In this document: piece after piece, positions 24,784 through 29,429 of the stretch | How positions within the stretch are numbered: position 1 is the stretch's first letter | Layout: the number at the start of each line of letters is the position of its first letter | Origin: Gammaproteobacteria bacterium | GTDB lineage: Bacteria; Pseudomonadota; Gammaproteobacteria; Steroidobacterales; Steroidobacteraceae | Reading direction: 5' to 3' | Length of the DNA stretch: 64,000 nucleotides | NCBI GenBank assembly: GCA_016874295.1 | Contig: VGUH01000010.1 | Coordinates: 1-64,000 of the forward strand | Translations under genes and position numbers: made by a program | Notes under the pieces: model-generated | What the model was told of the DNA's origin: nothing | Database searches by the model: none | The model's input: the letters and a program-made list of their open reading frames with translations, nothing else

Positions 24784-25576
24784 GGCGCTTCGCGCCGGGT
24801 TCCCGAGCCTCACGTTCGAATCGCCCGCGGACGGCGTGCTCGAGCTGGTGATCGCCAACGAGGGCCGCCGGAACGCGGCGACCGAGGCGATGCACCGGGA
24901 CCTCGCGCACGTGTGGCGCGCGATCGACGCGGACGCGGGCGTGCGCGCCGTGCTGGTGCGCGGCGCCGGCGAGCACTTCTCCTCGGGCGGCGATTTCGCG
25001 CTGATCGAGCGCATGATCGAGGACGAGGCGACGCTGCTGCGGGTCTGGCGCGAGGCGAGCGACCTGGTCTACAACCTCGTCGACTGCAGCAAGCCCGTGG
25101 TGTCCGCGATCCGCGGGACCGCGGTCGGGGCAGGTCTCGCCGTCGCCCTGCTCGCGGACATCTCGGTCGCAGGGCGCAACGCGAAGATCCTCGACGGACA
25201 TACCCGCCTCGGCGTCGCCGCGGGCGACCACTCGGTGATCATCTGGCCGCTCCTGTGCGGCCTCGCCAAGGCGCGCTACTACCTGCTCACCAACGAGCCG
25301 CTCACCGGCGCGGAGGCGGAGCGCATCGGGCTCGTGTCCCTGTGCGTCGACGACGGCGAGGTGCGCGAACGCGCGCTCGCGGTCGCCGCGAAGCTCGCGG
25401 CGGGAAGCGGCAGCGCGCTCACGTTCACCAAGCGCGCGCTCGGCAACTGGCTGCGCCTCGCGGGGCCGTCCTTCGACGCCTCGCTCGCGCTCGAATTCCT
25501 CGGTTTCCGTCTCGCGGACGCGAAGGAAGGACTCGACGCCGTGCGCAGCCGCCGGCCGCCGAAGTTCACGCGCTGA
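24761..25576 (+). CDS. Crotonase-fold protein of the paa operon, catalytic Glu pair replaced
   Basis: 271 residues of enoyl-CoA hydratase/isomerase family. The oxyanion-hole region is FSSGGDF and [16 protein letters not shown]. The positions that hold the two catalytic glutamates in ordinary hydratases read GAGLAVALL and [12 protein letters not shown], so neither Glu is present, while the Asp after VAAG and the following IIWPLL are typical of a distinct crotonase subgroup. It may be an isomerase acting at the PaaG step or another CoA-ester hydratase; the sequence does not settle this. Overlap with paaZ suggests coupled translation, and a GC-rich hairpin after its stop may end the operon. Confidence 0.82.
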
Positions 25577-25580
25577 GATT

Positions 25581-25601
25581 GCGGCGCGCCGTGCGCGCCG
25601 C
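25581..25601 (+). terminator. GC-rich hairpin ending the paa operon
   Basis: GCGGCGCGC and GCGCGCCGC form a perfect nine-base-pair stem around a CGT loop, five bases after the last paa stop codon. No T-run follows, so it may slow polymerase or act with Rho rather than as a classic intrinsic terminator. It separates the paa operon from the riboswitch leader. Confidence 0.5.
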
Positions 25602-25611
25602 TACCATCCGC

Positions 25612-25705
25612 ACTGCCTTGGGGTGGTCCCGAAGGGACCTGAGATGCCGGTCTGGCCGGCGAACCCGTCGAACCTGATCCGGTTAGGACCGGCGTAGGGA
25701 GCAGG
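25612..25705 (+). promoter_or_regulatory. Thiamine pyrophosphate (TPP) riboswitch
   Basis: The conserved THI-box elements occur in the right order: GGGGTGG, then CTGAGA (25639-25644), ACCCGTCGAACCTGATC (25663-25679), GGTTAGGACCGG, and CGTAGGGA (25693-25700). TPP binding should lower expression of the downstream genes. The GGGAG ribosome site (25697-25701) for the GTG at 25707 is part of the closing 3' strand, so ligand binding would directly hide it and block translation. The aptamer defines the following genes as a thiamine uptake and salvage operon. Confidence 0.95.
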
Positions 25706-25706
25706 C

Positions 25707-27791
<2,085 letters not shown>

Positions 27792-27800
27792 GGTGAAACC

Positions 27801-28043
27801 ATGCACGTCGCCGTTGACTTGAGCCTCTATCCGCTGACCGGCGAGTTCGTCCCGCCGATCCTCGACTTCATCGAGCGACTGAAAGGCCACCCGGGCCTCA
27901 GCGTCGTCACGAACTCGATGAGCACGCAGGTGAGCGGCGACTACGAACTCGTTTTCGACGCATTGCGCGCCGAGATCCGCGCGAGTCTCACCGCGCTGCA
28001 TCGCGCGGCGCTGGTCATGAAGGTGCTGGGTGGCGCCGGCTGA
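27801..28043 (+). CDS. YkoF/MTH1187-family thiamine-binding-like protein
   Basis: 80 residues, a single ferredoxin-like unit: MHVAVDLSLYPLTGEFVPPI and LSVVTNSMSTQVSGDY are characteristic of the family. YkoF of Bacillus binds thiamine or its HMP moiety with two such units in one chain; single-unit forms are expected to oligomerise. It starts nine bases after the receptor and has a GAGGTGAAA ribosome site. Its last 14 bases overlap the permease gene. A likely intracellular thiamine/HMP binding or delivery protein; the precise role is unknown. Confidence 0.8.
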   Translation: MHVAVDLSLYPLTGEFVPPILDFIERLKGHPGLSVVTNSMSTQVSGDYELVFDALRAEIRASLTALHRAALVMKVLGGAG

Positions 28044-28584
28044 GCTCGTCGCGGTCGGTTTCGGCCTCGCCTACATCCTGCTCGCGATCCGCGAGCAGCG
28101 GGCCTGCTGGATCGCGGGCGGGATCAGCACGGCGATCTTCGCCGGCGTATTCCTCCACGCCGGCCTGCCGCTGCAGGCGGCGCTGCAGCTCGTCTACGTC
28201 GCGATGTCGGCCTGGGGATACCACGCCTGGCGCAGGGACGCCGCCGCCGCCGCGCCTGTTCGGCGCTGGTCCGTGCCGAGGCACCTACTGGCGCTGGCCG
28301 GCGTCGGCCTCGCGACGGCGGCCAGCGCGCCGCTCGCAGCGCGCTACGCACTCGCCGCGGCGCCGGTCGCCGATTCGCTCGGGACCTGGGCGAGTCTGGT
28401 CGCGACCTGGCTGCTCGCGCGACGTGTCGTCGACACCTGGCTGTGGTGGATCGCGATCGACACGGGACTCGCAGGTCTTTTCTACTCGCAAGGCCTCGTG
28501 GCGACGGCTGCGCTGTACCTCGCCTTCGGGCTGCTCGCAGCCGCGGGCTGGCGCAGCTGGCGGAAACGGATGCCCGCCCCATGA
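28030..28584 (+). CDS. PnuC-family permease, probable thiamine transporter (PnuT type)
   Basis: 184 residues from GTG 28030, about six membrane helices. VAMSAWGYHAWRR near residues 58-70 corresponds to the conserved Trp-rich substrate loop of PnuC transporters (WGYxxW), and DTWLWWIAIDTGLAGLFYSQ to the second. PnuC-type carriers move vitamins by facilitated diffusion, with trapping by phosphorylation inside; those in TPP-regulated operons carry thiamine. The adjacent kinase gene, overlapping by ATGA, fits that trapping mechanism. Confidence 0.9.
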   Translation: MAPAELVAVGFGLAYILLAIREQRACWIAGGISTAIFAGVFLHAGLPLQAALQLVYVAMSAWGYHAWRRDAAAAAPVRRWSVPRHLLALAGVGLATAASAPLAARYALAAAPVADSLGTWASLVATWLLARRVVDTWLWWIAIDTGLAGLFYSQGLVATAALYLAFGLLAAAGWRSWRKRMPAP

Positions 28585-29429
28585 GCGCCGCACCCGCCGA
28601 TGCGCGCATCGCGACGGCCGTGCAGGCGCTCGGGCTCGCGCGACCGAAGGTCGTGGCGCTCGACGGCGGAGTCGCGAACCGCAGCTACCGCCTGCGTGCA
28701 GCGGGGCAGGACCTGGCGCTGAAGCTGACCGGGGAATCGGCTGACGCGCTGGGCGCGAATCCGCAGTCGGAACTGGCAATGCACTCGCTCGCGGCCGGTG
28801 CGGGGCTTGCGCCGCCCGTCGTCCTGGCCGATCCGGCGCGCGGATTCATCGTCTCGCGGTTTGTGACCGGGCGCGTGCTGAGCGCGGATGACTTTGGCGA
28901 CCCGCGACTGTTGCTGCGGGTCGGCGCCTGGGTCGCCGCGCTGCATGCACTGCCGGTGCCGGCGGGGCTGCCGCGCGTGGACCTCGGCGAGCGGGCCGCG
29001 GGCTATCTGGCGCGCGTCGTCGCGCAGGCCGGCGACCGGTTTGCCCGGGACCTGATGAGCGCGCTCGCGCTGAGGCGTGCGGCATTACCGCCACCCGCGA
29101 GACCTGCCGCCTGTCACCACGACCTGCACCATCGAAACTTCATCGACGATGGCGCGCGCCTGATGGTGGTCGACTGGGAGTACGGGGGCTCCGGCGACCC
29201 GGCGGCCGACCTCGCGTCCTGCATCGGCTATCACGACCTGGGCGAGGCAGCGGTCGAGGCGCTGCTCGCGGGCTACGGCAGCCCGGATGCGGCGCTGCGT
29301 GCGCGAATCGCGGCGCTCGGCTGGATCTTCGACTGTCTCTGGTATGCGTGGAACGCGGCTGCGGAACTCGCGGGTCTCGCGCCGGATCCCGCGGAGCAGG
29401 CGCGGCTTGCCGCGCGACTCGCGCATTGA
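28581..29429 (+). CDS. APH-fold kinase, probable thiamine kinase
   Basis: 282 residues from ATG 28581, overlapping the permease stop (ATGA). It has the aminoglycoside/choline kinase fold: a nucleotide loop around [12 protein letters not shown], the catalytic loop [10 protein letters not shown] (HxDxxxxN) and the metal-binding [17 protein letters not shown]. ThiK-type enzymes phosphorylate thiamine to thiamine monophosphate and trap it after import. A choline or ethanolamine kinase could look similar; operon context under the TPP riboswitch favours thiamine. Confidence 0.85.

Follow-up and report, generated by a model that had tools for sequence, protein, structure and literature searches.

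How does a riboswitch control a gene whose start codon lies only a few bases past its aptamer core? The question is raised by a locus in a 64,000-nucleotide (nt) stretch of DNA from a member of the Steroidobacteraceae (assembly GCA_016874295.1, contig VGUH01000010.1, positions 1 to 64,000 of the forward strand; referred to here as the window), in which a putative thiamine pyrophosphate (TPP) riboswitch directly precedes the gene for a TonB-dependent outer-membrane receptor. The element is predicted to be a direct-occlusion TPP riboswitch that governs the receptor of a thiamine-uptake operon. We assign this reading a probability of roughly 0.87, and within it we infer TPP binding, repression, the substrate of the receptor and the transcription start.

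The aptamer and the ribosome-binding site

An Rfam cmscan search returned a match to RF00059 on the plus strand at 25609-25717 (67.9 bits, E = 3.3e-11; gathering cut-off 54.3 bits) that spanned the whole model, positions 1-105, without truncation. The initial annotation of this DNA had called a TPP riboswitch and had staked that call on a covariance-model scan, which the region passed. The window contains one TPP riboswitch, and no second copy of RF00059 was found when the entire draft genome (2.37 Mb, 98.8% complete) was searched. The locus reads ...GGCGTAGGGAGCAGGCGTGACC..., and the features of the aptamer and of the gene behind it were as follows; the helices are given according to the Rfam pairing.

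25609-25717, plus strand: TPP riboswitch aptamer (THI element), RF00059
25614-25618 (5' strand UGCCU) with 25703-25707 (3' strand AGGCG), plus strand: P1
25619-25622 with 25664-25667, plus strand: P2
25625-25629 with 25635-25639, plus strand: P3
25646-25650 with 25656-25660, plus strand: P3a
25673-25676 (5' strand CCUG) with 25695-25698, plus strand: P4
25679-25682 with 25689-25692, plus strand: P5
25697-25701, plus strand: Shine-Dalgarno sequence GGGAG (core GGAG, 25698-25701), within the 3' strand of the aptamer
25707-27791, plus strand: TonB-dependent outer-membrane receptor, 694 amino acids, predicted thiamine receptor (PF07715, PF00593)

The core motifs CUGAGA, GAACCUGA and GUAGGGA were all intact, and every modelled aptamer pair was a standard pair. 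Across 87 relatives, compensatory changes were present in P2, P3 and P3a; the pair 25646-25660 occurred as G-C, C-G, U-A or A-U and was paired in 86 of the 87 relatives, compared to 45 in shuffles. P4 and P5 were nearly invariant and were paired in essentially all of these relatives, the exception being G25676-U25695 (73/87), and the bases equivalent to 25696-25698 and A25700 did not vary. P1 was short and was paired in part among the relatives, usually through three to five pairs, of which the inner three to four were typical. Judged by its sequence, the element at 25609-25717 is a genuine TPP riboswitch with an aptamer like its family in every respect, and membership of that family predicts that TPP is bound and that repression follows at this locus. 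The score was moderate, at 67.9 bits against up to 79.9 bits in relatives, as might be expected of a degenerate or inactive aptamer kept by chance, or of a strain in which regulation has been lost; however, the intact motifs and the standard pairing make this explanation extremely unlikely.

The ribosome-binding site was found within the conserved part of this fold. As described in the initial annotation, the GGGAG sequence is part of the 3' strand of the aptamer and is followed, after five bases (CAGGC), by a GTG start codon at 25707-25709; both statements were exact. GGGAG comprises the conserved aptamer core GGGA and one further G. G25697 and G25698 belong to P4, in which they are paired with C25674 and C25673 (C-G in 87/87 relatives at both positions); G25699 and A25700 lie in the three-way junction, and G25701, which is unpaired in the model, lies just before P1. 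The same annotation had placed the ribosome site inside the closing stem. That placement was ruled out, since the Rfam pairing puts these bases in P4 and the junction instead, and P1 begins at A25703.

The 3' strand of P1, AGGCG, consists of the spacer and the first base of the GTG, the latter through a weak U-G pair, so that the GTG, which starts 6 nt past GGGA, shares one base with P1. A conserved P1 pair to the start codon was rejected as a general feature; the fifth pair was present in 5 of the 28 compact loci (defined below) that have an AGG-type P1, no more often than in shuffles. A TAG at 25695-25697, inside the aptamer, closes the receptor frame upstream, and no receptor start can therefore lie further upstream. 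Position 25707 is the sole ATG, GTG or TTG between this TAG and the plug domain of the receptor. The predicted N-terminus, MTVQPLILIASLLAGTAAASA, looks signal-peptide-like, as judged from the sequence by eye.

The receptor start, at 6 nt past the aptamer core, leaves room for neither a terminator nor a separate expression platform, and no terminator-like hairpin was found in 25500-25900. The same geometry recurred in 70 of 105 relatives, and the earlier statement that no separate expression platform is needed was therefore retained. The terminator search also bears on an alternative in which the aptamer works mainly on transcription, by ligand-dependent termination that is either intrinsic or mediated by Rho, and excludes ribosomes only as a secondary effect. 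Dual control that includes Rho has been mentioned for one TPP riboswitch (PMC10907184), and a GC-rich operon would be Rho-prone if it went untranslated. However, the lack of both a hairpin and the space for one would leave Rho to act only downstream of a ribosome block, and we consider mainly transcriptional control unlikely.

Direct occlusion would proceed in the following way. When TPP is low, the junction would be loose, the 3' strand of the aptamer would open, and GGGAG would be reachable by the 30S subunit, with the receptor translated from the GTG at 25707. When TPP accumulates, the three-way junction would be locked; P4 and the junction would then hold the Shine-Dalgarno sequence, P1 would take up the spacer as far as the start codon, and ribosomes would be kept off. 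Direct cover extends to the ribosome site of the receptor alone; any effect on the downstream genes (YkoF-like, PnuT and kinase) would be indirect and could arise through coupling, mRNA decay or Rho.

Promoter and layout among relatives

Two promoter elements were read from the sequence immediately upstream of the aptamer.

25602-25607, plus strand: likely -10 element TACCAT, 18 nt ahead of the GGGG of P2
25579-25584, plus strand: weak -35-like hexamer TTGCGG, 17 base pairs (bp) upstream of the -10 element

The TTGCGG hexamer was below the threshold of a strict consensus promoter scan and was missed by it; TTGCA-like hexamers were seen by eye at the equivalent place in several relatives. The best -10-like hexamer was located 14-26 nt upstream of the P2 GGGG in 84% of the relatives' loci, compared to 19% of shuffles, with a mode at -18; the GGGG pattern was unmatched in 12 loci, the window included, and these stand outside the count. 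Transcription would start at approximately 25613-25615, 6-8 nt past the -10 element, which is about the first base of P1. With such a start, the 5' untranslated region (UTR) would be approximately 93 nt and would consist almost entirely of the aptamer. A perfect 9-bp GC hairpin (GCGGCGCGC CGT GCGCGCCGC) without a T run was also observed at 25581-25601, inside the promoter spacer; it lies directly past the upstream enoyl-CoA hydratase gene and is possibly the 3' end of the latter.

TPP riboswitches were present in 45 of 59 related genomes. The loci used for comparison were picked by similarity to the window's receptor, and 80 of the receptor-relative loci came from named genomes that included Steroidobacteraceae, Woeseiaceae, Shewanella and unclassified Gammaproteobacteria. 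Layout was counted over 105 distinct receptor loci whose aptamer could be read, a compact locus being one in which the start lies no more than 15 nt past the core and the N-terminus is of normal length. Seventy loci were compact, 25 had a longer leader and 10 were ambiguous, fractions that apply to relatives of this receptor and not to TPP riboswitches at large. Rows L013, L037, L070, L074 and L082, in which the aptamer pattern was unmatched, and L052, at a contig end, were left unassigned.

Compact starts lay 0-12 nt past the core, nearly all at +2 to +12 and mostly at +6 to +8, and in extended relatives, such as Shewanella, L024 and L029, the core and the start were 50-90 nt apart. Several extended members of the Steroidobacteraceae type carry CCGGATCT before a second Shine-Dalgarno sequence. 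This segment is complementary to the GATCCGG of the aptamer, and their pairing could provide a classical translational platform in the extended members. Loci L008, L014 and L034 have a ThiC-like downstream open reading frame (ORF), identified through matching genome places, and an apparently longer leader. On the receptor tree (FastTree, ambiguous rows omitted, many forks weakly supported) the layouts were interspersed, with 8 changes. Opinion is evenly balanced on whether, in Steroidobacteraceae, Woeseiaceae and their kin, the switch has shrunk to a stand-alone unit in which the -10 element, aptamer and start lie end to end and the UTR is the aptamer, with repeated switching between compact and extended forms among orthologues.

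In loci L027 (core end +6 to +73) and L054 (core end +6 to +67), both from close relatives, an ATG or GTG embedded in the aptamer opens a leader ORF of 19 or 15 codons that ends 7-13 nt short of the ATG of the receptor itself; the L027 receptor has no clear Shine-Dalgarno sequence of its own. This leader ORF may couple its translation to that of the receptor, the alternative being an assembly frameshift. Locus L035, a second TPP riboswitch in genome G012, immediately precedes a small YkoF-like ORF (MKAAVEISLYPLGEDYIARI...) and a PnuC-like gene, with no receptor, and its ATG approximately 9 nt past the core represents the compact layout on another gene. Woeseiaceae loci such as L069, L077 and L104 were compact but had a differing sequence, GUAGGAAGGGAnnCATG; their GGGA Shine-Dalgarno sequence lies just past the core, at the place expected for P1, and a P1 partner was not obvious.

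Operon genes and thiamine supply

The gene behind the switch had been annotated at the outset as a TonB receptor, and domain searches agreed (Plug PF07715, 53.2 bits; barrel PF00593, 100.3 bits). Relatives carry the same receptor family behind TPP riboswitches, and thiamine is the substrate predicted from the regulation and the neighbouring genes. YkoF-like, PnuC-family and thiamine-kinase-like genes follow the receptor gene, in that order and on the same strand.

27801-28043, plus strand: YkoF-related small protein, 80 amino acids, predicted to bind thiamine or hydroxymethylpyrimidine (HMP) (PF07615)
28030-28584, plus strand: PnuC-family inner-membrane transporter, probably PnuT (PF04973, 143 bits)
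28578-29429, plus strand: thiamine-kinase-like phosphotransferase (PF01636)

The YkoF-related protein matched PF07615 with 27.2 bits (cut-off 21) and PF01910 with a sub-cut-off 20.9 bits; its gene is shorter than the length limit of the first ORF scan and hence was unlisted there. The PnuC-family protein passes the TIGR01528 PnuC cut-off, and its NCBIfam name would be PnuC. It is probably PnuT, with a predicted specificity for thiamine, and no close solved structure was found for it with phmmer. The kinase-like protein matched TIGR02721 ThiK with an E value of 4.9e-22, yet remained under the curated cut-off. Among the 75 relatives with enough 3' sequence, 70 had a PnuC homologue downstream on the same strand and 69 had the kinase. 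The gap between receptor and PnuC genes in relatives had a median of approximately 290 nt, which suggests that a YkoF-like gene would fit in most of them; these gaps were not searched one by one for such a gene.

Family searches of the window's own genome gave no match to ThiC, ThiE, ThiD or TPK and a sub-threshold match only to ThiG; ThiL was matched with 300.9 bits. Since recognisable ThiC, ThiG, ThiE, ThiD and TPK are missing and ThiL is present, the bacterium is probably a vitamin B1 auxotroph. Imported thiamine is probably converted to thiamine monophosphate (TMP) and then, via ThiL, to TPP, and the uptake operon and ThiL together appear to form the main path by which the cell obtains TPP. 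ThiC was present in just 8 of the 45 good-quality genomes among the 59 related genomes, which suggests that B1 auxotrophy is usual in this order.

Folding energies and comparison with known systems

Several results weigh against direct occlusion in a B1-dependent host. Computed energies, which include no ligand or tertiary terms, favoured a non-aptamer fold by 9-17 kcal/mol, and when more coding sequence was included the Shine-Dalgarno sequence was partly paired in that fold (opening 3.8-4.6 kcal/mol). In 69 of 70 compact loci the base after the GGGA or GGAA core was a G that completes GGAG, compared to 7 of 25 extended loci (Fisher p = 7.5e-13, one N counted as not G); this raw contrast is strong and in itself favours direct occlusion, but the link between the extra G and layout was non-significant after relatedness was allowed for. 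The genome, moreover, is a 98.8% complete draft in which a thi gene could have been missed. Independent selection of the extra G as a Shine-Dalgarno base was tried as an explanation and was not established, as there were only about two informative independent pairs.

Given the dominance of the non-aptamer fold and the pairing with coding sequence, folding alone settles neither the ON state nor the balance of states. The energies were nevertheless in partial agreement with direct occlusion. For a short transcript, opening of the Shine-Dalgarno sequence required 0.3 kcal/mol from the free ensemble and approximately 9 kcal/mol (8.6 + 0.3) from the aptamer fold, a figure that assumes that ligand makes the aptamer as stable as the free ensemble; the raw figures for opening from the aptamer-folded state are relative to the unstabilised aptamer and are negative.

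The main helix of the computed ligand-free fold, which it dominates in the window, pairs P3a with the 3' strand of P5/P4. A hidden platform might therefore be sought in internal strand exchange, in which the P3a arm (25644-25659) would pair with that strand when ligand-free and bare the Shine-Dalgarno sequence. However, the complementarity of P3a to the P5/P4 3' strand in compact loci (mean z of +0.27) did not exceed that of shuffled arms and was like that in extended loci (+0.14), and the helix, which is unconserved in relatives, resembles a GC-rich coincidence. In about a dozen loci, including the row of the window, the P3a arms were over-long owing to faulty extraction; the other rows were equally unenriched. 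Strand exchange is thus very unlikely, and direct occlusion remains the preferred reading.

On this reading, the locus represents a minimal case in which the aptamer and the expression platform are made of the same bases. The host probably relies on imported B1, and control of one receptor start codon would then matter for the main supply of an essential cofactor. The compact and extended split among orthologous receptors makes platform gain or loss testable and, if true, a stand-alone reduced switch with repeated layout changes would be a natural series in which to study both.

Burial of the ribosome site within the aptamer core has been described for riboswitches under the name direct translation attenuation (Barrick & Breaker 2007, PMC2258182). 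TPP riboswitches are among the classes in which this arrangement is commonest, their purine-rich conserved 3' region substituting for the ribosome site, and the rule used was a start no more than 15 nt from the aptamer end (PMC2258182). The window shares the ribosome site in the core, a start within that distance and the lack of a platform. A 2024 review names the general mechanism direct occlusion, 'Group 1', and treats TPP riboswitches under strand exchange (PMC10907184). The compact design has been described for other TPP riboswitches since at least 2007, and this locus is a clean new example. What it adds to the attenuation and occlusion accounts is modest: the compact form is the majority in this gammaproteobacterial receptor set, no spacer separates promoter, aptamer and start, and the host is a probable B1 auxotroph.

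In comparison with RF00059 as a family, the window shares the whole model, all core motifs and a thiamine-uptake context, and differs in the absence of a separate expression platform. TonB receptor operons with TPP riboswitches are known from Bacteroides, as OMthi-pnuT-tnr3 (PMC5613172), and omr1 has a nearby TPP riboswitch in SAR86 and Flavobacteriales (PMC10881298). In B. thetaiotaomicron the operon is split, and the level of control was called uncertain (PMC5613172). Likened by domains and neighbours, the window shares with this group the TonB receptor (plug and barrel), PnuT, a thiamine-phosphorylating enzyme and the TPP riboswitch. In contrast to OMthi-pnuT-tnr3, it adds a YkoF-like gene, and its kinase is ThiK-like and not Tnr3. 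The extended-leader relatives, such as Shewanella, L024 and L029, have the same receptor family and aptamer as the window and differ in their longer leader.
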